Source: Anaeromusa acidaminophila DSM 3853 | Lineage (GTDB): Bacteria; Bacillota; Negativicutes; Anaeromusales; Anaeromusaceae | NCBI RefSeq assembly: GCF_000374545.1 | Contig: NZ_KB894582.1 | Location: forward strand, 248,001 to 312,000 | Length of the DNA stretch: 64,000 nucleotides | Direction of reading: 5' to 3' | Shown: piece after piece, positions 11,039 through 64,000 of the stretch | How the letters are laid out: each line of letters begins with the position of its first letter | Numbering within the stretch: position 1 is the first letter of the stretch | Notes under the pieces: generated by a model | The model's input: the letters and a program-made list of their open reading frames with translations, nothing else | Databases searched by the model: none | What the model was told of the DNA's origin: nothing | Program-made: the position numbers and the translations under genes

Positions 11039-11066
11039 GGCCGCGCTAAAAGCGCGGCCCTTTTTT
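11039..11066 (+). terminator. Rho-independent terminator
   Basis: Perfect 9-bp GC-rich stem GGCCGCGCT/AGCGCGGCC with loop AAA, then CTTTTTT. It follows the small membrane protein gene. Confidence 0.92.
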
Positions 11067-11080
11067 ACGGAAGGGATGAT

Positions 11081-11119
11081 TATACCCCTCCATTTACTCC
11101 CTCTACTCTTGTTCAAAAA
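11081..11119 (+). repeat. Intergenic repeat, copy a (plus orientation)
   Basis: ACCCCTCC-ATTTACTCCC-TCTACTCTTGTTCAA form of the dispersed ~35-nt repeat, placed 15 nt after a terminator and before the MFS gene. Confidence 0.65.
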
Positions 11120-14481: not shown

Positions 14482-15813
14482 ATGCAGAAAAATGAGGAAT
14501 GGAGTTCCCCAAAATCTTTGGATTTTGAAGAGATTGACGCGGGGCTGGGAACCCGAGAAGCCATCGCGGAAGCGCGGCGTTGTTTGAACTGCCCCAAGCC
14601 GTTATGTCGCACAGGATGTCCGATTGAAAATGATATTCCTGGATTTATTCAGGCGTTATCCAAAGGAAACATAGGCGATGCTAGGGATATTTTGGCGCTG
14701 AGGAGCAATTTGCCTGCCGTTTGCGGCCGCGTTTGTCCGCATGAGAAGCAGTGCGAGGCGCATTGTGTGCTGATGAAAAAAGGCCAGGGCATCGCTATTG
14801 GCAAATTAGAACGCTTTGTGGCCGATTTTGACGCGGAAATGAATCTGGAACGTCGCCAAATACCGCTGAAAACAGAAGGTAAAGTAGCGGTGATTGGTTC
14901 CGGTCCTGCGGGACTGACCGTCGCCGGCGATTTGGCTAAGGAAGGCTTTCATGTGGTGGTGTACGAAGCTGAAGGAGAAGCTGGCGGGGTGCTGCTATAC
15001 GGCATTCCTCAGTTTCGTTTACCAAAGCAGGTAGTGCGTCGCGAGGTGGAGCGCATTGCTTCGTTGGGAGTTACCTTTATTACTCGCTGCTTGGTGGGCG
15101 TTGATGTGACCGTAGACCAGCTTTTTGCGCAGGGATTTGATGCTATCTTTATCGGTACCGGTACGGCTTTGGCGAAGGAATTGGATTTGCCGGGCAAGGA
15201 GCTCCAAGGCATTGTGCAGTCCAGCTATTTCTTGCGGACTGCTACTTTGTGCCATGAAGGGGAGCTTCCAGAAAGAGAAGTCCCCGTGACCAAGGGAGAG
15301 CAAGTGCTGGTAATTGGCGCTGGCAATGTGGCTATGGATGCGGCGCGGACGGCGTTGCGTCTAGGGGCGGCTCGGGTAGGCGTTGTTTATCGGCGAACCG
15401 TAGCGGAAATGACAGCCCTCCAGGCGGAGTATGAGGCTGCGCTGGCGGAAGGGGTGGAATTTTCCTGGCAAACAGCTCCTAAAGCCTATGTGGGAGAAGC
15501 GGGACGTCTGACCGGCCTTGAGGTGGAACAGGATGGTGGGGTGAAAATTCTGTCGGCGGACAAGGTGCTCTTGGCGATCGGATCTCGTCCGGCGGCGCGC
15601 ATTGTGTCTTCGACAACCGGTATTGAGGTTCAGCCGTCTGGGTATGTTATCACTAAGGAAAAGCCCTACGGCATGACCACGCGCCAAGGCGTTTTTGCCG
15701 GCGGTGACGTGGTGCATCAGCCGGCAACCGTGGTGCTAGCTATGAAAGAGGCCAAAAAAGTGGCGCAAGGCATCGCCGCCTATGTGCGAGCGGTGAAGCT
15801 GCTGCAGCCGTGA
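14482..15813 (+). CDS. GltD-like NAD(P)-dependent Fe-S flavoprotein oxidoreductase
   Basis: 443 residues from ATG 14482 (GGAAGGAG 10 nt upstream; the alternative TTG at 14449 has none). N-terminal cysteine-rich domain (RRCLNCPKPLCRTGCPIEND and CGRVCPHEKQCEAHC) for two [4Fe-4S] clusters, FAD-binding GSGPAGLTVAGDLA, NAD(P)-binding GAGNVAMDAARTALRLGA, and the second FAD motif FAGGDVV near the end. This is the domain order of the glutamate synthase small subunit and of its many stand-alone relatives. No large glutamate synthase subunit is nearby, so it probably passes NAD(P)H electrons to another partner; the molybdoenzyme 117 nt upstream is the candidate. Confidence 0.88.
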   Translation: MQKNEEWSSPKSLDFEEIDAGLGTREAIAEARRCLNCPKPLCRTGCPIENDIPGFIQALSKGNIGDARDILALRSNLPAVCGRVCPHEKQCEAHCVLMKKGQGIAIGKLERFVADFDAEMNLERRQIPLKTEGKVAVIGSGPAGLTVAGDLAKEGFHVVVYEAEGEAGGVLLYGIPQFRLPKQVVRREVERIASLGVTFITRCLVGVDVTVDQLFAQGFDAIFIGTGTALAKELDLPGKELQGIVQSSYFLRTATLCHEGELPEREVPVTKGEQVLVIGAGNVAMDAARTALRLGAARVGVVYRRTVAEMTALQAEYEAALAEGVEFSWQTAPKAYVGEAGRLTGLEVEQDGGVKILSADKVLLAIGSRPAARIVSSTTGIEVQPSGYVITKEKPYGMTTRQGVFAGGDVVHQPATVVLAMKEAKKVAQGIAAYVRAVKLLQP

Positions 15814-23963: not shown

Positions 23964-24749
23964 ATGGACCAAATGGAACAGGATTGGGAAGCGTTTAAAC
24001 AGAAATTTAATGCCAAAGCCGGTATTGATTTGAATTATTACAAACGGGCGCAGATGCAACGGCGCATTACGAACTTGATGACTCGTCACGGTCATAGCAG
24101 CTATACCGCTTTTTTTTCTCAGTTGGAAAAAGATCCGAAAGCTTACAAAGAATTTGTTGAGTACATCACTATTAACGTGACGGAATTTTTTCGGACGCCG
24201 GAGAAGTTTGAGGAATTGGAGAAAAAGGTGCTCGCAGACTTGCTGCAGCGCAGTCCGAAACTCAATATCTGGAGCGCCGGTTGTTCTATGGGGGCGGAAC
24301 CTTACTCGCTATCCATGATCTTAGCCGATTTAACGCCTAATGCGCGGCATCGCATTTTGGCAACGGATTTGGATGAAGAGGTGTTGGGTAAGGCCAGGGA
24401 AGGCAAGTTCAGCGCGAACGAATACAAGAATATTTCCACCCATCGAGCTTCTAAATATTTTACGAAAGAAGGCGACCGCTATGTAGTGGTCCCTGATATC
24501 CGTTCGAGAGTGGAATTTAAGAAACACAATTTGCTGCTGGATAAATTTGAGAGCGGCTTTGATCTTATTCTTTGCCGTAATGTAGTAATTTATTTTACGG
24601 AAGAAGCCAAGGACGCTCTATATCGACGTTTCCTAGAAGCGTTGAAGCCGGGCGGCGTTCTTTTCGTCGGCGGTACGGAAGCTATCTTGAATTTCCGCGA
24701 CATCGGCTATCAAAGCTATATGCCTTTCTTCTACCAAAAGCCGTTTTAA
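23964..24749 (+). CDS. cheR: CheR-type chemoreceptor methyltransferase
   Basis: 261 residues from ATG 23964 (GGAGG 8 nt upstream). N-terminal four-helix CheR_N domain (YYKRAQMQRRITNLMTRHG), then the SAM-binding domain with the characteristic NVTEFFRTPEKFEEL, IWSAGCSMGAEPYSLSMI and LILCRNVVIYF. It methylates glutamates of chemoreceptors such as those at 1414 and 42801. No cheB or cheW is adjacent. It ends at a repeat-terminator-repeat region. Confidence 0.95.
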   Translation: MDQMEQDWEAFKQKFNAKAGIDLNYYKRAQMQRRITNLMTRHGHSSYTAFFSQLEKDPKAYKEFVEYITINVTEFFRTPEKFEELEKKVLADLLQRSPKLNIWSAGCSMGAEPYSLSMILADLTPNARHRILATDLDEEVLGKAREGKFSANEYKNISTHRASKYFTKEGDRYVVVPDIRSRVEFKKHNLLLDKFESGFDLILCRNVVIYFTEEAKDALYRRFLEALKPGGVLFVGGTEAILNFRDIGYQSYMPFFYQKPF

Positions 24750-24763
24750 GCGGAACGAGAGAT

Positions 24764-24806
24764 TTACGAACAAGAGAACCAGAGTGACCAGAGGGTTACG
24801 CTGAGG
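24764..24806 (-). repeat. Intergenic repeat, copy b (minus orientation)
   Basis: Begins ACGAACAAGAGAACC-AGAGT and ends GAGGGTTACGCTGAGG; reverse complement matches the plus copies. Starts 15 nt after the cheR stop and precedes a terminator. Confidence 0.6.
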
Positions 24807-24819
24807 GATTGAAAACAGT

Positions 24820-24862
24820 AAAGACACACAGGCTCTGGCGCAAGCTGGGGCCTGTGTCTTTT
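24820..24862 (+). terminator. Rho-independent terminator after cheR
   Basis: AAAGACAC(ac)AGGC pairs with GCCTGTGTCTTTT with a 2-nt bulge. Followed by a short T run. Confidence 0.7.
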
Positions 24863-24904
24863 GATATGCCAGAATTTATAAGATGAATTGGCGGGGCGTT
24901 AGTA

Positions 24905-24938
24905 ACGAACCGCGAAATACACGAAATACGCGAAAGGG
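24905..24938 (+). repeat. CGCGAA/ACACGAA short tandem-like repeat, copy 1
   Basis: ACGAACCGCGAAATACACGA then AATACGCGAAAGGG; three degenerate units of about 9 nt (CGCGAAATA, CACGAAATA, CGCGAAAGG). A second copy is at 63288-63322, also between a terminator and the ~35-nt repeat. Confidence 0.6.
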
Positions 24939-24986
24939 TTTTTCAAGGGACAGGAGCTTCTGTATAAATGGCGGCATAACTTTATT

Positions 24987-25036
24987 TTCCGTAACTCTTC
25001 GTCGTACCCTCCGCGACTCCCGCGACTCTTATTTAA
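24987..25036 (+). repeat. Intergenic repeat, copy c (plus orientation, diverged)
   Basis: TCGTACCCTCCGCGACTCCC then GCGACTCTTATTTAAT. With copy b it brackets the terminator at 24820-24862 in inverted orientation. The rest of the 24750-25187 gap contains no convincing gene. Confidence 0.6.
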
Positions 25037-25187
25037 TCTTAGTACTCTCTGGCTTTTCTCTGCTGCTGAGTGGCGTATCCTTCGCTATGCCCTCAGATTC
25101 TCCGGTTCTCTTATGTATTTCTTGCGGGCGTGTTTTGTACAGTTTGTCTGCCATTTTCAGACTGCCTGTTTTTTTCCGCCGTGGGAG

Positions 25188-25358: not shown

Positions 25359-28331
25359 ATGAGCGTGAAGGAGATGCAGGCGCTAAAAAAGGGGTATTTT
25401 GTCAAGGAAGCCGGCAATGTTCTGGGGACTGGGAAAATCAAGGATATACGAGCAGGCAGCGTGGTGGTGGAGTTCTTTTCTTCGCCTGTTAGTCGCCAGG
25501 ATGTAGAAATCCCTTTTGAGTCGCTTCGTCCATTAGGACGGTTGCAGCCTAAAACGCGTTGCTTTGTATACATAGAAGCGCTGGGGCGTTGGTACGCAGG
25601 CAGGGTAGAACAATTTGACGCAGCCAGCGGCGAATATCAAGTGAAATTTCCGGAAGGGACGCTGCCGGGCAATTTGCGCATGTTGCCTGTGCCGACGGAA
25701 GATGTGTATGTGCGCTGGAACCGGCCTCTTGGAGACGCAGTCTCCATGCTGGCGGAAACGCTGCAAGAGACGGCTTTTTTGCGTGAAACCAGGGCGTCTT
25801 TTGTGAGAGGGCTTTTAGAACAGAGAGCGGCGACACGAGGCGTTACAGGTCTTTTGTCCGCCAAAGTACAGGTAGTTCCAGAACAGATTGAAGCGGTGTG
25901 GGAGCTTGTTAGCGGCGTTTCTCAGCGGCGGGTGCTGGCAGCGCCTCCTGGCTGGGGGAAAACGATAGCTGCCGGTGCGGTGGTGCGCCAATTTTTGCTG
26001 GATGACCCTGCAGGCAAAGTGTTGTTGGTGGTGCCTCCGCTGATGGTTGCTTTCTGGGAAGAAATGCTGCGTAAACATTTTTACTTGCAACCGAACGACC
26101 CGCGCTTAAAGCTGATTGCCGCTGATCGGGCGGTGACGGCTAAAGACTTTGTTTTGAAGCAGCGCCCAGGCTTGGTCGTTTTTGATGACGCGCAACTTGT
26201 GGCCGCGGATGTATTAACGAAAGACGAAGCGGCGCAGCGGCGTTACCGTTTTTATGCGGCTGTCGCGCAACAGGCCGAGCGGGTGCTCTTGACAACACCA
26301 TTGGCCTCGCAAGAACAGGAAGCTTTATATTGGGCGATGTTTCACTTGGTGGATCGAGACGCCTATCCGTTGGAACAGTTACCGGAGGCGGCAGCGCTCT
26401 GGGGGAAAAAGGCAGAGCCGCGCTTGTTGGAAATTGGCGGGGTCGAATTGCCGCTAGGCCGACAGACCGGGAAGGTAAAAGTGCTGCAAGTGGCGGGAGA
26501 AGCCGCGGAAGAACTGGAAGAAACGCTGGAACAATGGCGTTTGCTCATGAAAAAAGCGATGGAGAGCGATGCGGATCTGGCGCAGCATCGCCAATTGGTG
26601 GAAGTTCTATATTTGGCGTTTGCGGAATGCGCCGGCAGCAGCTACAAGTTGTTAAAAGAATTAGTAGGATGCCGTTTGGGACGGCAGACGCCGGCGCAGC
26701 TGGAAGAAGAGCTGCCGAAAACTTGGCTGCATTTGTGTCGGAAGATGCCCTTGTTAGAGGGAGAAGAAGCTCTCTTGCAGCGCCTTGACGCATTGACGCC
26801 CGACTCTGACGAAGCTGAACCTAGATTGGCTTCATTGGCTGCCTATATCAAGACGCTGCCGAAGGCTCGCAAGGTGGCCATCTTTACGCGTTTTGCCGCC
26901 ACTTGTCAGACGGTAACTGAAGAATTGAGCAAGCTTTTGGGGGCTAAAGCCGTGGCGCAAGTGCACCGGGCGCAAACGGTTCGCGAGGTCCAAGCGGCGC
27001 AAGTGCGCTTTCGGGATGAGGCTTCCTGCCAAGTGCTGGTGTTGGATCCGCGGGGCGAAGACTATTGCGACTTGGGTCACGCCCAGATGGTGGTGCATTT
27101 TGATTTGCCCTTTGATTTGCGTCGTCTAGAACGGCGCATGTCGCGAGTGGAACGGCGTAATCGTTCGGAAACTTTGCAAACCGTAGTTGTTCTCGGTTCG
27201 GGCGGCGATTATTCTCTGGCCAATGTTTGGTGCGAGGTACTGGAAGAAGAGTTGTCTTTTTTTCGCCAGTCTCTTCACAACATAGATGGCTGGGCGAGAA
27301 AGGTAGCTACGCCGTTGGTGCGTAAGTCGCTTCTTGAAGAAGGCTATGAAGGTCTTTTAGATGCCGCCGCAAACTTGGAAGAGGCTTTTGGTCAATGGCA
27401 AGCCTCTCGTCCGGCTGCGCAAGCGACGGCTGGTTGGGGCGAAGCGGCCCTCGCGTATGATAATGATTGCGATGGTCAGCGTCAAGCCTTTGAACCTTGG
27501 ATTGCCATGGCGCTGGGGCTAGGTCGTCAAGGGCCTCGTTATACCGCAACAAGCGATACGGTGTTGATGCCCTTTGATTGGCTCAGCCGCATGCAAGAAG
27601 ATTTGCAGCGGCCGCTGCCGTATGACCGGAGCGAGTCTTTGCAGATTCCAGAAGCTGCGGTAGTTCGTTCAGGTCAGTCTTTTTTGGATACGGTGTCGCG
27701 CTACTTGGATTGGGATGACCGAGGGCAAACTTTTGCTTTTTGGCGTCCGGAGGCGCGGTGGAGCGAGGAAAAAGGCGATGAATGGGCTGGGTTTTGCTAT
27801 GAATATACGCTGGAAGCGGATATGAAGCTTGTTAAAGGCTTTTTAAAGAAGTTGGGCCTGCCGGAACGTTTGTGGAAAACGCTCCGTCGCCGTGCGGATG
27901 GCTTTTTGGCGCCGTTGACGGTGCGGTTATATTTGGATCAGCAAGGACGGCGTGTGCGCCATCCGGAGCTTTTGGAAATTTTAGATCAGCCCTTTAGCAA
28001 GGCCCGTGATATTAACTTGATTAAGGGGCGGGTCAAACAGCTTCATGAGGTAATTGGCGTTGAGGATTGGAAGGATGCTTGCGGTAAAACCTACGAAGCT
28101 TCCTTGAAACTGTTGGAAAAAGACGCCTGGTATCAGGAGTTGGTACCGGCTGCGTGTGAAGCGCTGGAAAAAGACACGGCTCAGCGAGCTAAAGCTTGGA
28201 ATGAAGCAGGCCGAACAGACTTGGCGGAGCAGGAAATTGCTCTTTCCCGGGCGCTGGCGGCGGGTATGAAGAAGCCGGCTGTGCGCCTCTTGGCGGCAGG
28301 CTGCATTATTGTCTCTGGCCGCAAACCTTAA
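25359..28331 (+). CDS. SNF2/RapA-like superfamily 2 ATPase (DpdE-like), orphan
   Basis: 990 residues. N-terminus (about 10-120) has two Tudor/SH3-like beta segments (GTGKIKDIRAGSVVVEFF and YAGRVEQFDAASGEYQVKF). The ATPase core has Walker A APPGWGKT (195-202), motif II FDDAQ (275-279, in place of DEAH), motif III TTPLAS, and in the second RecA lobe IFTRF, VLVLDPRGEDYCDLGHAQMV and motif VI LERRMSRVERRN (590-601), the SNF2-type arginine-finger region. The last 380 residues match nothing I recognise. Architecture and length resemble RapA and the DpdE protein of 7-deazaguanine DNA-modification islands, but no other dpd gene is nearby. AGGAGG lies 10 nt before the ATG. Monocistronic, flanked by repeats on both sides. 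Confidence 0.75.
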   Translation: MSVKEMQALKKGYFVKEAGNVLGTGKIKDIRAGSVVVEFFSSPVSRQDVEIPFESLRPLGRLQPKTRCFVYIEALGRWYAGRVEQFDAASGEYQVKFPEGTLPGNLRMLPVPTEDVYVRWNRPLGDAVSMLAETLQETAFLRETRASFVRGLLEQRAATRGVTGLLSAKVQVVPEQIEAVWELVSGVSQRRVLAAPPGWGKTIAAGAVVRQFLLDDPAGKVLLVVPPLMVAFWEEMLRKHFYLQPNDPRLKLIAADRAVTAKDFVLKQRPGLVVFDDAQLVAADVLTKDEAAQRRYRFYAAVAQQAERVLLTTPLASQEQEALYWAMFHLVDRDAYPLEQLPEAAALWGKKAEPRLLEIGGVELPLGRQTGKVKVLQVAGEAAEELEETLEQWRLLMKKAMESDADLAQHRQLVEVLYLAFAECAGSSYKLLKELVGCRLGRQTPAQLEEELPKTWLHLCRKMPLLEGEEALLQRLDALTPDSDEAEPRLASLAAYIKTLPKARKVAIFTRFAATCQTVTEELSKLLGAKAVAQVHRAQTVREVQAAQVRFRDEASCQVLVLDPRGEDYCDLGHAQMVVHFDLPFDLRRLERRMSRVERRNRSETLQTVVVLGSGGDYSLANVWCEVLEEELSFFRQSLHNIDGWARKVATPLVRKSLLEEGYEGLLDAAANLEEAFGQWQASRPAAQATAGWGEAALAYDNDCDGQRQAFEPWIAMALGLGRQGPRYTATSDTVLMPFDWLSRMQEDLQRPLPYDRSESLQIPEAAVVRSGQSFLDTVSRYLDWDDRGQTFAFWRPEARWSEEKGDEWAGFCYEYTLEADMKLVKGFLKKLGLPERLWKTLRRRADGFLAPLTVRLYLDQQGRRVRHPELLEILDQPFSKARDINLIKGRVKQLHEVIGVEDWKDACGKTYEASLKLLEKDAWYQELVPAACEALEKDTAQRAKAWNEAGRTDLAEQEIALSRALAAGMKKPAVRLLAAGCIIVSGRKP

Positions 28332-28335
28332 ATCG

Positions 28336-28385
28336 AAAAATCTCCTTGCTCGCAGTTTCAAAAACTGCAGGCAAGGAGATTTTTT
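28336..28385 (+). terminator. Rho-independent terminator, duplicated cassette copy 1
   Basis: 14-bp stem AAAAATCTCCTTGC/GCAAGGAGATTTTT enclosing a second 7-bp hairpin GCAGTTT/AAACTGC, then T. Nearly identical in sequence to 29526-29573. Confidence 0.9.
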
Positions 28386-28430: not shown

Positions 28431-28640
28431 GTTAAGGGGGGAGCGAGCCTGAATAAAAAGGCGGCGGCCATTGTGTTTGATACAAGATTTGCGCGCACCT
28501 CGAAAAAACTGGCTAAGTCGGCAGTTTCTTAACTCGCTGTGCTCAAACAGGCGAAACTGTGATCCCCCTTAGCCGGTTTTTCCGTCCTGCGGACCGGCTT
28601 ACTCCAATAAAAGTCTCAAACACAATGGCAGCCGCCGTCG
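28431..28640. repeat. Nested inverted-repeat element (MITE-like or structured RNA)
   Basis: Outer arms GCGGCGGCCATTGTGTTTGA (28461-28480) and TCAAACACAATGGCAGCCGC (28616-28635) are a 20-bp inverted repeat with a 1-nt offset. Inner arms AAAAACTGGCTAAG (28504-28517) and CTTAGCCGGTTTTT (28568-28581) pair over 14 bp with one mismatch, and GTTAAGGGGG (28431-28440) can compete for CCCCCTTAGC. A further hairpin spans 28571-28598. No transposase or convincing frame lies within. The 28332-28817 gap otherwise holds two terminators and repeat copy d. Confidence 0.55.
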
Positions 28641-28644
28641 CAGC

Positions 28645-28685
28645 CCTCAGTCGTACCCTCCCTTGACTCCCTCTACTCTTGTTTA
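28645..28685 (+). repeat. Intergenic repeat, copy d (plus orientation)
   Basis: TCGTACCCTCCCTTGACTCC then CTCTACTCTTGTTTAA; follows directly on the nested inverted-repeat element. Confidence 0.65.
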
Positions 28686-28748
28686 AAAAGTGCTTCGTTG
28701 TTTTTGAACCATCGTCATGGCGCAAAATGAATATTTTGTAAAAAATGG

Positions 28749-28817: not shown

Positions 28818-29450
28818 ATGAAAAAATGGTGGCGGCTGGCGATTTTGCTTGTAGGCTTTGCGATTTTGGGCGGCAGTGTTTTCGTAGTTCAGGCGGCGGT
28901 GGCAGTAGAAAATGACTGGTTGTGTCTGCCCTATGAACGATTAGGGCCGATCAGAGCTTCGGCTAAAGAGGAAGATTTGCTGCAGTTGTTTGGCGCTGAG
29001 CAGGTGCAGCGCAGGACCATTTATGTGGCGGAAGGAACTGAAAAACGGGATGTATCGGTCATTTATCCTTATAGTGTTAACGAAATAATCTTGTTTTGGC
29101 GGAACAATCAATACGGGCAGGTGTTGTCGCACGCTTGGGTGAAAAAAGAGGGAACGTCTTGGCGGACGGCGGAAAATATTACCGTCGGTACGCCCTTGGA
29201 AGAGCTGAATCGTTTGAACGGCCAGCCTTTCCGTATTGTCGGTTTCGGCTGGGACTACGGCGGCTATATTCCGGTGCGTCAGGAAGGAAGGCTGATTCAG
29301 CAAAAAGGCTTGTGCCTGCGCTTGGCCCCGGTGCGGCAGCTGCCACGCGGGTATTACGGCGACGGAGTGAAAGTATCTTCTGAGGACCCGGAATTATTGC
29401 CGGATGCGGTGAGAGTAGTATCCTTTGAAGTGACCCTGAACGAAAAATAA
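28818..29450 (+). CDS. Secreted hypothetical protein
   Basis: 210 residues, not recognised. N-terminal signal peptide: MKKWWR, hydrophobic core LAILLVGFAILGGSVFVV, probable cleavage after QAA or AVA (about 26-29). The mature part has aromatic-rich beta-like segments (VIYPYSVNEIILFWRNNQYG, GFGWDYGGYIPV) and no cysteine pairs beyond two single Cys, so it is likely a small periplasmic or envelope domain. AAAAAGGGGG precedes the ATG. It ends at another repeat-terminator-repeat block. Confidence 0.75.
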   Translation: MKKWWRLAILLVGFAILGGSVFVVQAAVAVENDWLCLPYERLGPIRASAKEEDLLQLFGAEQVQRRTIYVAEGTEKRDVSVIYPYSVNEIILFWRNNQYGQVLSHAWVKKEGTSWRTAENITVGTPLEELNRLNGQPFRIVGFGWDYGGYIPVRQEGRLIQQKGLCLRLAPVRQLPRGYYGDGVKVSSEDPELLPDAVRVVSFEVTLNEK

Positions 29451-29453
29451 CGA

Positions 29454-29502
29454 GGAACGAACAAGAGGACCGGAGTAATCGGAGGGCGTGCTGAGGGTAC
29501 GG
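29454..29502 (-). repeat. Intergenic repeat, copy e (minus orientation)
   Basis: GAACGAACAAGAGGACCGGA then GTAATCGGAGGGCGTGCTGAGGG; begins 3 nt after the stop of the secreted hypothetical and precedes a terminator. Confidence 0.65.
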
Positions 29503-29525
29503 ACTTTAAGCACTTGCTCCAATAA

Positions 29526-29573
29526 AAAATCTCCTTGCTCGCAGGTGAAAAACTGCAGGCAAGGAGATTTTTG
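29526..29573. terminator. Rho-independent terminator, duplicated cassette copy 2
   Basis: Stem AAAATCTCCTTGC/GCAAGGAGATTTT with the same internal CTCGCAG...CTGCAG segment as 28336-28385; only the loop differs. It lies between convergent genes (hypothetical and lexA). Confidence 0.9.
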
Positions 29574-29597
29574 TAATTTCAAATACAAATTTCTAAA

Positions 29598-29699
29598 ACC
29601 CTCTGTGGTGTCCTCTGGTATTCTCGCGACTTTTGTTCAATCCGTATTCTCTGGCTTTTCTCTGTTCCTCAGTTACTCTGAGTTCCGTTCCCTCCTCAG
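29598..29699 (+). repeat. Intergenic repeat, copy f with a diverged tail
   Basis: ACCCTCTGTGGTGTCCTCTG ... GCGACTTTTGTTCAA (29598-29640), followed by TCTGGCTTTTCTCTGTTCCT, a segment also present after copy c at 25048-25066 (TCTGGCTTTTCTCTG). Runs into the end of lexA. Confidence 0.55.
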
Positions 29700-42800: not shown

Positions 42801-44702
42801 ATGAAAGAGAGGCGTGTTTTAGCGGCGGCGGTCGCGGTTATCGCGGCTGTAATGGCGGCTGTGGCGCAACAGGCAGGTTTGTGGGCGGTCGTGCTGGCTA
42901 CAGTAGCAGGGGGGATTGGCGTTTTTTATTTGAGCGGAAGCAGAGGCGGTGCGGAGACCGTTTCTAAACCGCTTGTCGGAGTGGCTGTTAGCGAGAAAAA
43001 GCAAGGGTATGGCAATGACTTATATTCCTTGGCGGAGACGATGGGATTTATTTCTCAGCAATTGGTTTGGTTAGTAGGGAAAAGCACAACGGCTTTGCAG
43101 CAGTTGAGCGTACATACGCAGAAAGTGGCTGATGCCAGTCATCACAACGCCAGTGGTTTAGAGGAGGCCTCGGCCAGCACCGAAGAAATGGCCGCCTCGG
43201 CGGAACTTGTCAGCGTGTCCAGCGGTGAAGCCCTAGAAGAATGTCGCCGATCGACGCAGCTTGCCGTAGGCAATCGGCAGGAGGTGCGCGCGTTGGCGTC
43301 GGATATGCTGCAGGTGGCGCATATTGTGGAAGAGGCTTCGAAGTCTATAGGGCAATTGGAGGAAGCGTCCCGCCGTATTGTGGATAGTGTTGGCAGCATA
43401 CATGCTATTGCGGATCAAACTAATCTTTTGGCTCTAAATGCGGCTATTGAGGCGGCTCGAGCCGGTGAGCAGGGGCGCGGTTTTGCGGTAGTAGCGGAAG
43501 AAGTACGCAAGCTGGCTGGTGAAAGCGCTGTTATCAGCAAGGAGATCGCTACGACCGTCGGAGAAATGGCCCAGCGTACGCAGGCTGTGACACAGGCTAT
43601 GCAAGGAGCGCAAACGGCGTTGCAAGGCGTGGATGAAGCGGCTGGGCGTTCGGAAAAAGCGTTGGATGAAATCGTAGCTTCTATGGGAGGCATTGAAAAA
43701 TCAGTGGAGCGTTTGGCACAGGCTTCGGATGAGCAGCGTCACGGAGCTGCGGAGATGGCGACTGTGCTGGAGGAACTTAGCCGCGCCACTGTGGAGATTG
43801 CTGCGAGTACGCAAGAAGCCTTGGATAGCGTTACTTCCCAGGAAAAAACAGCGGAAGAAATCTTGCAGCAGGCGAAGAAGATGGCGGAATCGGTAGACGG
43901 CATGCAGGAATTCGCCAGCCATTTTAAGCAGTCTGAGGATTTGATTTTTGCAGTTAATCCTTTCGCAGCGCCCCAGGTGATTCGCGAGCGTTATGTGCCG
44001 GTTTTAGAGGAAGTAGCTCGGCAGGTGGGTAAAAAAGCCAGAGTAATTATTGTTTCAGATTATGACGCCCTGGGACGCGCCTTGGCTAACGGCACCGCCG
44101 ACATTGGATGGTTTTCGCCATTTGCCTATATTGCAGCCAGGGAGCGTCATGGAGTGCGACCGCTTGTGACGCCTGTCGTCAACGGCAGTCCTTCTTACCA
44201 TGGTTTGATTATTGCTCGTAAGGACAGACGGCTTCAGACATTGGAATCCTTGGACGGCAAGCGCTTTGCTTTTGTAGACCCGCAGTCCGCATCAGGTTAT
44301 GTATATCCTAAAGCCATGTTGCTGGAACAAGGGAAGAACCCGGAACGCTTTTTCGGTGAAACGCGCTTTTTGGGTAGCCATAACCGGGTGATTGACGCCG
44401 TCTTGTCAGGACAAATGGATGCTGGCGCTACTTATACGGAAGCGATGGATGCGGCGCGTGCGGCGGGTTCGGCGGTACATGAATTGATGGAAGTGGCCCG
44501 AACGGAGGCCATTCCTAAAGACGCTATTGCAGCCCGGGCTGACGTGGATAAAGAATTGACGCAGGCTATCAGCGAAGCGTTTGTTCGTTTAAGCTCAGCG
44601 GGAGGTCAGGAGTTGCTGCGCAAAAGTCAAATCGACGGCTTTGTACGTAGTGATGACGCGGCATATGATGTCATTCGCCGAGCGGCTAAGGTAACGCAGT
44701 AA
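42801..44702 (+). CDS. Chemoreceptor with C-terminal PhnD-like binding domain
   Basis: 633 residues. Two closely spaced TM helices (about 6-21 and 27-47) with almost no extracytoplasmic loop; no HAMP. Then the chemoreceptor signalling domain (about 75-375), tip [20 protein letters not shown] at 203-222 and [16 protein letters not shown]. Residues 380-633 form a second domain resembling PhnD/phosphonate-binding proteins: [33 protein letters not shown] (434-446), [18 protein letters not shown] (491-508) and [16 protein letters not shown]. With an even number of TM helices the binding domain would be cytosolic. A weak GGAAGGA lies 14 nt before the ATG. Soluble-side ligand sensing for taxis is the likely role. 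Confidence 0.9.
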
Positions 44703-55500: not shown

Positions 55501-56173
55501 TCCTTGGCAGGATACGGTCGGCAAGGCGGCTAAGCTGTCGGTAACGGAAATAAAGCGCCGTTTTGCCGATGTAGACGAAAGCGCTCGCCCTTGGCCGGCG
55601 CGGTCTGGTTCGGTATATGACCGGCCGATTTTTTTGCAGGCGCAGCAAGGGCCGAAGGGCGGCGAATACGGTGTCTGGATGCATACGGTGATGCAGCATT
55701 TGCCGCTAGAGGGCAGGCTGAATGAGGAACAGGTGCAGTCTGTTTTGGAAGAATTAGTTGCCAAGGAAGTGCTGCTGCCGGAGCAGGCGTCAGCCTTGGA
55801 AGCATCGAAAATTGCCGCCTTTTTGGCTTCCTCCCTGGGAAGCCGCTTGCTGGCGTCCGCGCAAGTTCGACGGGAGGTTCCTTTTAGCGTTCTGTTGCCG
55901 GCGGAAGAATTTTATCCTGAAGTGGCCGGTCAGGAAGAAACTGTCTTTGTGCAAGGCGTGGCGGACTTGTTGTTTAAAGAAGGCGACGCTTGGATTTTGG
56001 TAGACTATAAAAGTGATCGAGGTTTGTCGCCGGCAGAATTGGCAAGCCGCTATCGTTTGCAGTTGGAGCTCTACGCCCGAGCCTTGGGCGGCATTCTGCG
56101 GCAGCCTGTCAAAGAGTGCTGGCTGTACTCCTTCGCACTGGGGGAAACCATTCTTTTAGAGAATGAGGATTGA
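52520..56173 (+). CDS. addA: ATP-dependent helicase/nuclease subunit A
   Basis: 1217 residues from ATG 52520, which overlaps the addB stop. UvrD-type helicase: Walker A SAAAGSGKTAVLVERV, VTFTNAAALEMRERI, ISTIHSFCQSVV, motif II VDEYQDTNGVQ, VGDVKQSIYRFRLAEP, motif V TIHKSKGLEFPVV and motif VI LYVALTRAREKLI. C-terminal RecB-type nuclease with GVADLLFKEG and LVDYKSDRG. It is the helicase/nuclease motor of AddAB. The stop codon lies inside a copy of the intergenic repeat. Confidence 0.97.
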   Translation: MSWSERQRRAIEARRKNLLVSAAAGSGKTAVLVERVIQRMLDVADPLDIDRLLVVTFTNAAALEMRERIAAALGKELSRQDLPTDRLERLERQLALLGSASISTIHSFCQSVVRQHFHQLDLDPRFRVASQAEADLLRRDVLEEVLEKRYAADDPAMFLLADCYGGERDDAELGAMIVELYEFSRSLPEPELWLQGCLDVFAPPELVSFDELPQAKLLLRQAKLRLGTLAVAAADLLELAELAGEKEVQLAQEYAAVIAELQAASTWSELERACRQGEKTAYTRLSGGKKDPAGQEARDAFKQERDQLKKQLEKVYVLVDRPGEELLEDLRHCQPLMAALVAVTLEFASAFREAKASRNLLDFGDLEHFCLAVLRDGEGPSAAALDLQERFQEVMVDEYQDTNGVQEAILQCLCPVASGRLFLVGDVKQSIYRFRLAEPELFREKYESYPALGEGYERIDLAQNFRSRANVLAGVNYLFRQLMEPQVAELAYGEAEFLRPGLPYPPCEGKSLDGPNELWLLEETGQEATESEEDGAGEELPEGFAAEAALIARRLQKLHEEQVQVYDKGLGGYRALAWRDVVVLLRSVRAKGPVLLEALREAGIPAYADVDEGYFREIEVEVLLAALAVVDNPRQDIPLAAFLRSPLVGCKAEELAEIRLAGAERSDLWDAVTVFAELETEAGHKAARAQELLEGWRRLARRRGVPELLLRMYRDTGYYEYVGGLPGGALRQANLRALYDRARQFENTHYRGLFRFLRFVEDLREGGADMAVARILGEQENVVRVMTIHKSKGLEFPVVVVADAGKQFNLQDLKKPVLFHKTQGLGPQVIDVKTRYRYPGAARKAVAHCLEMETKAEELRVLYVALTRAREKLILTGRLKHADKAAANWCRQSCRREELLPAGLIAEAKGYLDWLGPALVRHQAAGDLRRLGGAPQDECLLPDESLWGIHICPPAAAEAAGEAALPDDWSCLEEGQPLPGGEEARTAACLEWQYPWQDTVGKAAKLSVTEIKRRFADVDESARPWPARSGSVYDRPIFLQAQQGPKGGEYGVWMHTVMQHLPLEGRLNEEQVQSVLEELVAKEVLLPEQASALEASKIAAFLASSLGSRLLASAQVRREVPFSVLLPAEEFYPEVAGQEETVFVQGVADLLFKEGDAWILVDYKSDRGLSPAELASRYRLQLELYARALGGILRQPVKECWLYSFALGETILLENED

Positions 56174-56249
56174 ACAAGAGTCGCGAGAGGGTATGCAGGA
56201 GGGGGCGAAATTTAACAAGAGTAGAGTGAGTAGAGAGAGGGTGCGCAGG
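56171..56249 (-). repeat. Intergenic repeat, copies g1 and g2 in tandem (minus orientation)
   Basis: g1 TGAACAAGAGTCGCGAGAGG-GTATGCAGG (56171-56199) begins with the addA stop codon; g2 TTAACAAGAGTAGAGTGAGT-...-GAGGGTGCGCAGG (56211-56249). Both precede the terminator at 56315. Confidence 0.65.
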
Positions 56250-56314
56250 CGGCGGTTACTATATTTGAGAATTTTATTAAAACAAGACAGTCAGGCGTAA
56301 TAATCTGATATAGC

Positions 56315-56360
56315 AAAAACAGAGTCCGTGAAAGATTGCTTTCATGGACTCTGTTTTTTA
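56315..56360. terminator. Bidirectional terminator between addA and the prenyltransferase gene
   Basis: 20-bp stem AAAAACAGAGTCC... / ...GGACTCTGTTTTT with a single G-T pair and loop ATTG; U-rich ends on both strands. Confidence 0.92.
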
Positions 56361-56387
56361 AAAGTCATTAAATTATAAAACCCGTAA

Positions 56388-56430
56388 TCCTCGGTCGTAC
56401 CCTCCGATTACTCCCTCTACTCTTGTTCAA
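56388..56430 (+). repeat. Intergenic repeat, copy h (plus orientation)
   Basis: TCGTACCCTCCGATTACTCC then CTCTACTCTTGTTCAA. Forms an inverted pair with g1/g2 around the terminator; abuts the end of the prenyltransferase gene. Confidence 0.68.
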
Positions 56431-56450
56431 ATGCCGTGGTCTCGTGCCTC

Positions 56451-63245: not shown

Positions 63246-63267
63246 AAAGCCGCGCAAGCGGCTTTTT
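63244..63267 (+). terminator. Rho-independent terminator after the DUF4405 gene
   Basis: Perfect stem AAAAAGCCGC/GCGGCTTTTT with loop GCAA, overlapping the stop codon. Confidence 0.9.
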
Positions 63268-63287
63268 CTATATAGCATAACTTATAA

Positions 63288-63322
63288 AACGAACCGCGAA
63301 CTACACGAAAAACGCGAAAGGG
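63288..63322 (+). repeat. CGCGAA/ACACGAA repeat, copy 2
   Basis: AAACGAACCGCGAACTACAC then GAAAAACGCGAAAGGGG, matching copy 1 at 24905-24938 in order and spacing. Confidence 0.6.
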
Positions 63323-63358
63323 GAGTTCAAGAGCTTATGACTTTCCCTTTTTTTCTTC

Positions 63359-63397
63359 TCCTGCGTACCCTCTCGCGACTCCGGTTCTCTTGTTCAA
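63359..63397 (+). repeat. Intergenic repeat, copy i (plus orientation)
   Basis: TCCTGCGTACCCTCTCGCGA then CTCCGGTTCTCTTGTTCAA. Lies 90 nt after a terminator, as the other plus copies do. Confidence 0.65.
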
Positions 63398-63433
63398 TAT
63401 TTTCACTGTTCTGTGTTCCGTTTTTTGCTAAGG

Positions 63434-63453
63434 ACCGCGCAAGCGGTTTTTTT
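63434..63453 (+). terminator. Short terminator
   Basis: ACCGC/GCGGT with loop GCAA then TTTTTTT; its core CCGCGCAAGCGG is the same as in the terminator at 63244. The rest of 63246-63538 contains repeats only. Confidence 0.7.
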
Positions 63454-63538
63454 ATTTGGCAGGAAAGCTTGAAATTTTGCAGAATATATCTTTAAGAATC
63501 ATTTTTCTTAAAAAATCTCTACAAAGGCGGTGCGGAGA

Positions 63539-64000
63539 ATGAATTTACCAGAACAGTATCAACAGTTTTATGCTAAGATCCGCAGCACCATCCCGGAAGG
63601 CCGTATTTTTACGGATCCGGTGCGGACCCTGGCTTATGGCACTGATGCCAGCTTTTATCGTTTGATTCCTAAAATCGTGGTAAAAGTGAGGACCGTGCCG
63701 GAAGTTATCGCGGTCATTCATGCAGCTCATTTGCACAAAGTACCTCTTACGTTTCGAGCGGCAGGAACCAGCTTGTCCGGGCAGGCAGTGACCGATTCGG
63801 TTTTGGTCATGCTCACCGGCGCCTGGGGGCGCTACGAAATCTTGGAAAATGGCGAAAAAATCGTGTTGGAGCCGGGGATTATCGGTGCAGAGGCCAACAT
63901 GTATCTCAAACCGTTTGATCGTAAGATCGGCCCGGACCCGGCTTCGATCAACGCGGCCATGATCGGCGGCATTGCCGCCAATAACGCCAGCGGCATGTGC
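63539..64000 (+). CDS. FAD-binding dehydrogenase (D-lactate/glycolate-type), C-terminus cut by window edge
   Basis: Open frame from ATG 63539 to the right edge (154 residues). The N-terminal half of a PCMH-type FAD domain is seen: TDPVRTLAYGTDASFYR, FRAAGTSLSGQAV (the flavin-pyrophosphate loop) and KIGPDPASINAAMIGGIAANNASGM. This matches the large FAD- and Fe-S-linked D-lactate or glycolate dehydrogenases (about 930-1000 residues with C-terminal GlpC-like Cys-rich domains), or shorter GlcD-type proteins; the missing part would decide. GGCGGTGCGGAG upstream is a modest ribosome site. Such enzymes pass electrons to menaquinone or flavoproteins. Confidence 0.88.
   Translation, partial: MNLPEQYQQFYAKIRSTIPEGRIFTDPVRTLAYGTDASFYRLIPKIVVKVRTVPEVIAVIHAAHLHKVPLTFRAAGTSLSGQAVTDSVLVMLTGAWGRYEILENGEKIVLEPGIIGAEANMYLKPFDRKIGPDPASINAAMIGGIAANNASGMC

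Follow-up and report, generated by a model that had tools for sequence, protein, structure and literature searches.

Non-palindromic repeats with fixed polarity at intrinsic terminators in Anaeromusa acidaminophila and its sister genomes

Repeats and terminators in the window

The window analysed here is a stretch of 64,000 nucleotides from Anaeromusa acidaminophila DSM 3853 (bases 248001–312000 of contig C1, in a genome of 3.48 Mb and 61 contigs). It carries short repeats of two related subfamilies, A and B, which were scored with two sequence models, R1 for A and R2 for B, together with intrinsic terminators and additional repeat modules. The first of these repeats is a B copy at 11080–11119 (plus strand; R2, 40.9 bits, and sequence), located 3' of a plus-strand intrinsic terminator at 11039–11059, which was recognized from the sequence and by a terminator scan as a hairpin GGCCGCGC..GCGCGGCC followed by a T-run. 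Further on, an A copy on the minus strand (24762–24807; R1, 30.6 bits) occupies the space between the stop codon at 24749 and a plus-strand intrinsic terminator at 24826–24857. This terminator is bracketed by repeats, its downstream side carrying, all on the plus strand, a purine-rich D repeat with a 9-nt period that begins AACGAACCGCGAAATACACG (24904–24947, just 3' of the terminator), a degenerate A copy (24985–25030; R1, 15.0 bits) and a partial A copy (25088–25112; R1, 14.8 bits).

Two near-identical terminator hairpins are found at 28–29 kb. The first (28336–28384, plus strand) is followed by a MITE-like element, M (28460–28636, no strand assigned), whose 24-nt inverted arms are 92% complementary and which lies upstream of a B copy (28641–28690, plus strand; R2, 45.0 bits). 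The second is a bidirectional intrinsic terminator detected by the scan (29523–29572, no strand assigned); it is separated from the stop codon at 29450 by an A copy on the minus strand (29453–29497; R1, 22.0 bits) and followed on the plus strand by a degenerate A/B-like copy that runs into a C repeat beginning CTCTGGCTTTTCTCTG (29590–29660), recognized from its sequence and the C pattern and missed by R1 and R2. At 56 kb, a short A copy on the minus strand (56167–56204; R1, 29.2 bits, and sequence) provides the TGA stop codon for the gene whose end is at 56173 and is adjoined by a B copy of the same strand (56207–56247; R2, 40.4 bits). A bidirectional intrinsic terminator, detected by the scan and in the fold of 56160–56450 (56319–56354, no strand assigned), separates this B copy from an inverted one on the plus strand (56383–56434; R2, 37.3 bits). 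Finally, the terminator hairpin of an upstream gene (63248–63263, plus strand) is followed on the same strand by a second D repeat (63288–63331), found with the D pattern and 89% identical to 24904–24947, and by an A copy (63353–63401; R1, 57.1 bits). The core of this hairpin, CCGCGCAAGCGG, recurs at about 63435–63446, beyond the repeat block, and a single hairpin is present at the corresponding empty site of the sister species G002.

A sequence-only reading of the window had described about ten copies sharing one motif, and these repeats were confirmed in place. R1 and R2 recovered nine of the ten at E<0.01 (11081, 24764 minus, 24987, 28645, 29454 minus, both minus copies at 56171, 56388 and 63359), in addition to the partial copy at 25088, which that reading lacked; the tenth, at 29598, is too degenerate. 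The proposed formula was slightly wrong, in that exact patterns had no match in the window or the genome, because the spacers differ between subfamilies A and B.

Sequence and genomic range of the family

Both subfamilies are non-palindromic and have a pyrimidine-rich strand on which CTC recurs every ~9 nt. The A consensus reads TACCCTC-N-CGYG-ACTC-CGRTT-CTC-YTGTTCAATCC, often with an extra GTARCCCTC 5' of it, and the B consensus RCCCTC-NCTCT-ACTC-NCTCT-ACTC-YTGTTNAA; head-to-tail A/B neighbours, forming tandem AB/BA arrays, are common. R1 and R2 are models without structure. The former was built from 41 A sequences (78 distinct, 45 printed, four with shifted or odd left halves removed by eye) and the latter from 38 B sequences (52 distinct, 40 printed, two extended arrays removed). 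With one mismatch allowed, a 20-base core had 44 matches in the A. acidaminophila genome and none in the reversed control, and at a threshold of 15 position weight matrices (PWMs) detected 16 A and 28 B matches over 464 kb, before overlaps were merged, and none in the reversed sequence. Since core and PWM matches are absent from the reversed controls, a chance origin of A and B is rejected, and the genome-wide motif search suggested by the sequence-only reading thus places the repeats throughout the genome and not by chance in the window alone.

Copies of A were found with R1 in A. acidaminophila (at least 98) and in the related genomes G001 (at least 100), G002 (35) and G003 (at least 98), the high counts being lower bounds because scoring covered about 98 candidates in each genome. 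No R1 match was found in the other 56 of 60 Negativicutes genomes, all of which belong to other genera of the class. B copies found with R2 numbered 108 in A. acidaminophila, at least 150 in G001 and 38 in G002. Among named records of GTDB contigs, a collection in which entries close to that of the window may be hidden, the A pattern occurred in Negativicutes bacterium INTA.CYC.032 alone, and it had no match in viral contigs. Among the genomes searched, A and B are therefore restricted to the genus. The window had no Rfam match above the gathering score, no paper in the literature collection searched by full text contained the A core or a D string, and topic searches listed none describing the A/B family. 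Of the B copies listed on G001 contig C2, 70 of 83 lie within 0.5 Mb of dnaA (1401332–1401538), a span equal to 37% of the contig; the dnaA contig of A. acidaminophila, C3, is likewise copy-rich.

Placement and polarity relative to genes and terminators

Placement was assessed in 20 stretches of 20 kb, chosen regardless of matches, which together with the window make up 464 kb of the A. acidaminophila genome; copies were called by the PWMs and genes by a simple gene caller. Of the 43 copies in this sample, 42 lie between genes. The statement that all copies are intergenic was nearly right, the copy at 56167–56204 overlapping a gene end whose stop it provides. The context counts leave out gaps shorter than 40 nt as well as duplicated gap sequences and use 41 of the 43 copies, the two excluded being one inside a called ORF and one in a gap just under 40 nt. 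These 41 copies are distributed over convergent (16), tandem (24) and divergent (1) gaps. Counted by gap, a copy is borne by 12 of 32 convergent, 19 of 184 tandem and one of 41 divergent gaps, which amounts to a strong enrichment in convergent gaps and a near absence from divergent ones.

A strong terminator was defined as a hairpin of -12 kcal/mol or lower with a T-run, on either strand. Along the pyrimidine strand, it lies 5' only of 28 of the 41 copies, 3' only of four, on both sides of two and near none of seven (sign test, p 2e-5). Proximity to a terminator, claimed for every copy, thus holds for 34 of the 41, the scan finding none at the other seven. The distance from terminator to copy ranges widely, from 2 to 326 nt, which indicates that anchoring is by side and polarity and not by exact position. 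All 16 copies of convergent gaps in the 464 kb point outward, into the 3' end of the nearer gene. The same was found for 9/9 convergent copies in G001 (80 kb) and 6/6 in G003 (66 kb), counts that are not independent draws since the 64-kb regions of these genomes are orthologous to the window. At further G003 loci, chosen for holding an A copy, 34 of 35 convergent copies face the closer gene. Among A. acidaminophila copies in tandem gaps, the pyrimidine-rich strand is sense in 18 cases and antisense in six; at the A-selected G003 loci the corresponding numbers are 25 and 15, which is not significant.

Altogether, the outward-facing order of repeat, terminator and inverted repeat noticed in the window is borne out statistically, both genome-wide and in sister species. 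As a fixed unit, however, it is not the rule: at most sites copies occupy one flank only, and the terminators are mostly gene-specific. Self-comparison of gaps showed that repeat blocks often begin soon 3' of the T-run of a terminator unique to its gene. Furthermore, 81 copies are directed at a gene end no more than 70 nt away, and 16 of them include the stop codon of that gene; such donated stop codons are expected of copies landing on gene ends.

Associated modules

Several other modules accompany A and B; patterns for C, D, E and M were searched allowing substitutions only. A repeat block can be ordered as D (purine-rich, 9-nt period), a spacer, the MITE-like M and then A/B. Module C is a pyrimidine repeat beginning CTCTGGCTTTTCTCTGTT that obeys the convergent polarity rule of A/B in 8/8 cases, with a terminator 5' only at 12 copies, 3' only at three, on both sides of four and near none of five. 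D lies on the inner side and faces the opposite way; relative to its own pyrimidine strand, the terminator is 3' only at 12 copies, 5' only at two, on both sides of 12 and near none of five. The slot between the stop codon at 24749 and its terminator holds an A-like repeat in A. acidaminophila, G003 and G002 and a C-like repeat in G001, with the same polarity. A broad C pattern run over 398 genomes of the phylum proved too strict to be of use, having no match even in the A. acidaminophila genome.

D-like repeats beginning AACCGCNAAGTACGCGAAG, with a 9-nt period, occur in three genomes from at least two other Negativicutes genera (G005, five matches; G020, five; G025, one). Module E is a REP-like chain of small palindromes (ATGCCATCCATGGCAT, GGTACCTCACGTACC and GGCGCATCCAGCGCC) within some A/B copies, at locus L102 position 4425, L108 position 11455 and L103 position 7189. 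The M element measures about 150–180 nt and has the inverted ends TATTTGAGAC..GTCTCAAATA; besides 28460–28636 in the window, it was seen at L098, L103 and L114. At the orthologous place in G001, the window element is absent (an empty site).

Turnover between sister genomes

Orthologous gaps of the 64-kb region were compared across A. acidaminophila, G001, G002 and G003, as the sequence-only reading had suggested, and presence/absence polymorphism was found together with rapid turnover of length and copy number. The closest comparison is that of G001 and G003, whose coding DNA is 97.4% identical in this region. Their gaps differ in length by more than 10 nt in 8/9 cases where A/B is present, as against 3/20 of the other gaps (Fisher, p 3e-4), and orientation is unchanged at all seven sites with copies in both genomes. 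With greater distance between the genomes this excess of length changes becomes weaker (A. acidaminophila with G003, p 0.18; with G001, p 0.16; with G002, p 0.046). Between G001 and G003, aligned copies are identical at 362/423 bases (86%) compared with 5033/5290 (95%) of other gap bases, and between A. acidaminophila and the other genomes conservation of the copies is similar to that of the sequence around them (216/237, 208/231 for the copies); these identities come from small numbers and from alignments of repeats, which are fallible. G002 has no copies at four of the five A. acidaminophila gaps compared.

The gap at 63246–63539 provides a clean pair of empty and filled sites, measuring 107 nt in G002 and 293–325 nt in the others, with the terminator core flanking the additional DNA at either end. 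No flanking direct repeats of 13 nt or more were found outside repeat sequence, and a duplicated terminator core was seen at this one site only. Within the same gap, an internal unit is swapped (CGGTT-CTC for CCGCG-ACTC). In addition, a stretch composed of terminator plus repeat is common to two different gaps in A. acidaminophila and G001 and occurs in one gap only in G003 and G002.

Origin and possible function

The repeats A and B, together with the related C, D, E and M, are probably genus-specific, non-autonomous mosaic repeats that spread by insertion or copying and are anchored to intrinsic terminators with fixed polarity. A mobile or copied element is preferred because of the polymorphism between genomes, the restriction to one genus, the donated stop codons, the fast turnover and the lack of extra conservation; a fast-moving non-autonomous repeat is favoured over a conserved RNA element. 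One of the two origins offered by the sequence-only reading, a mobilised element without its own transposase, is supported by these results, namely by presence and absence at orthologous gaps, turnover of length and copy number, donated stops and absence from other genera. In the polarity seen here, the CTCYTGTT end faces away from the hairpin. A bidirectional terminator would present a hairpin and T-run on each strand, so that copies could land on either flank, giving inverted repeats that bracket the terminator and sometimes reach into the adjoining stop codon. Copying would be carried out by an enzyme acting in trans, possibly a strand-specific transposase that recognizes hairpins or a similar protein; polarity would be set by the hairpin and T-run rather than by selection, and any benefit to the host would be secondary.

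Several observations stand against terminator-anchored mobility: no enzyme was identified among the Y1-transposase matches, no constant target-site duplication was seen among flanking direct repeats of 13 nt or more, the distance from terminator to copy varies widely, and the excess of length turnover fades in the more distant pairs. The A. acidaminophila genome has nine Y1_Tnp matches, mostly fragments. The sole near-complete domain adjoins an ORF read as IscB-like and has no repeat nearby. No A/B copies flank the Y1_Tnp matches in loci of 1.6–3.4 kb, the nearest lying about 1.4 kb away (L039). A RAYT or IS200-IS605 enzyme was therefore rejected as the mobiliser, the Y1 matches being mostly fragments and the near-complete one having no A/B at its borders.

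Constant polarity despite turnover could also reflect selection, and insulation by selection is judged the main rival, a DNA-binding role being a lesser one. As functional insulators, outward copies would be selected to block read-through or antisense transcription through an extended stem, RNase cleavage or a protein roadblock. This is unlikely overall, although it would account for polarity staying constant while content changes and for the enrichment of convergent gaps, and it is attractive in a class where Rho was not found. Folding speaks on both sides. The bracketed site 56160–56450 folds at -105.9 kcal/mol compared with -71.1 kcal/mol for shuffled sequences (z -7.0), with its B arms paired, a value partly due to the terminator itself and to the inverted members of one family. 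Single A/B copies, however, have no consistent fold or common hairpin (z -2.65 to 0.38 for eight strands of four copies). Moreover, copies are one-sided at most sites, show no more conservation than the flanking sequence (and show less of it in the G001–G003 comparison) and are missing from most of the G002 gaps compared. The second origin offered by the sequence-only reading, a 3'-end processing or insulating structure, gains no positive support: single copies lack a consistent fold and extra conservation and are absent from most of these sites in a sister species. One paired site does fold strongly as a whole.

Mobility and insulation are combined in a further proposal, to be regarded as quite unlikely, by which a hitherto unrecognised mobile system, in a class with no detectable Rho, writes 9-nt-periodic repeats on the downstream flank of terminators, using the hairpin/T-run strand as target, and the resulting bracket has perhaps been co-opted as a gene insulator. 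Under such writing, the filling of the same slots by A, B and C types with the same polarity would mean that the targeting rule is conserved and not the sequence. Alternatively, the repeats could be binding sites for a DNA protein such as a nucleoid protein, gyrase or a replication or segregation factor, as has been proposed for REP/BIME of E. coli. The near-helical phasing of CTC every ~9 nt and the clustering of listed G001 C2 copies around dnaA would fit, and yet this role is improbable, because a DNA-organising site would not be expected to keep a polarity towards terminators and genes and because unrelated sequences (A/B and C) at equivalent positions argue against a single sequence-specific binder; moreover, copies also abound on G001 contig C1, which is unplaced on the chromosome. 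A very improbable origin is local slippage and decay, in which degenerate 9-nt tandem arrays arise in terminator flanks without transposition. The unit swaps at gap 63246 and the tandem AB/BA arrays are compatible with slippage, but near-identical copies of 40–50 nt at hundreds of unlinked loci, together with the terminator-plus-repeat stretch present in two gaps of A. acidaminophila and G001 and in one of G003 and G002, require copying between loci.

Rut sites are unstructured stretches of RNA, rich in C and poor in G, in which YC dinucleotides recur at regular intervals, features that the C-rich, G-poor strand of A/B matches in composition and YC spacing, as it does in lying downstream of intrinsic terminators. 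A Rho-loading role as back-up Rho-dependent terminators behind the intrinsic ones is nonetheless rejected as next to negligible, since the host class has no detectable Rho: PF07497 was found in 0/60 Negativicutes genomes (controls positive, 9/14), and TIGR00767 matches in A. acidaminophila fall below the family cut-off, the best one being read as a FliI-like (flagellar-type) ATPase.

Relation to known systems

Interspersed intergenic repeats are usually explained by palindromes and dedicated transposases. A/B constitutes an abundant non-palindromic family with strict terminator polarity and fast turnover between close relatives. Group IIC introns insert behind terminators, and their polar insertion downstream of intrinsic terminators resembles the placement of A/B; unlike them, A/B copies are tens of nucleotides long and have no intron-like body or reverse transcriptase. 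MITEs are similarly non-autonomous and intergenic and show presence/absence polymorphism, but terminal inverted repeats are absent from the A/B alignments, and among flanking direct repeats of 13 nt or more no regular target duplication was found; the nested M (28460–28636) is the MITE-like component. Should targeting be the source of the polarity, a mode of insertion that recognizes terminators would come to light; should selection be its source, the repeats would illustrate the insulation of neighbouring genes in a lineage without Rho. Empty and filled sites in several species make both targeting and selection directly testable.

REP/BIME elements, with their RAYT transposases, are similarly short, number about 100 or more in a genome, lie between genes in alternating orientation and are clade-specific, mosaic and strain-variable (PMC2817692, PMC3733652). 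The alternating orientation of BIMEs in composite intergenic arrays is paralleled by inverted copies at terminators and by A/B/C/D mosaics, although the A/B units are not REPs. REPs are palindromes, whereas A/B alignments have no palindromic core and only the embedded E is palindromic. Moreover, the palindrome of a REP is bordered on one side by a GTAG or CGTC tag (PMC3733652), and neither the A nor the B consensus contains a hairpin so tagged; no RAYT gene flanked by A/B was seen in the A. acidaminophila genome.

Further observations on gaps and neighbouring genes

A repeat of about 160 nt, family F, is common to many gaps (L106 11475–11971, L109, L111, L115 and others) and is also present in G002 and G003 in the gap after window position 28331. 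For the genes at 14482–15813 and 42801–44702, the orthologous regions of the three sister genomes (G001, G002 and G003) contain no match over the full length; in G001 and G003, A/B repeats are present in the gaps at these places. Finally, the two near-identical terminator hairpins at 28336–28384 and 29523–29572 flank the gene at 28818–29450, and in G001 the two gaps have hairpin, spacer and B repeat in common, which looks as though the block of one had been copied into the other.
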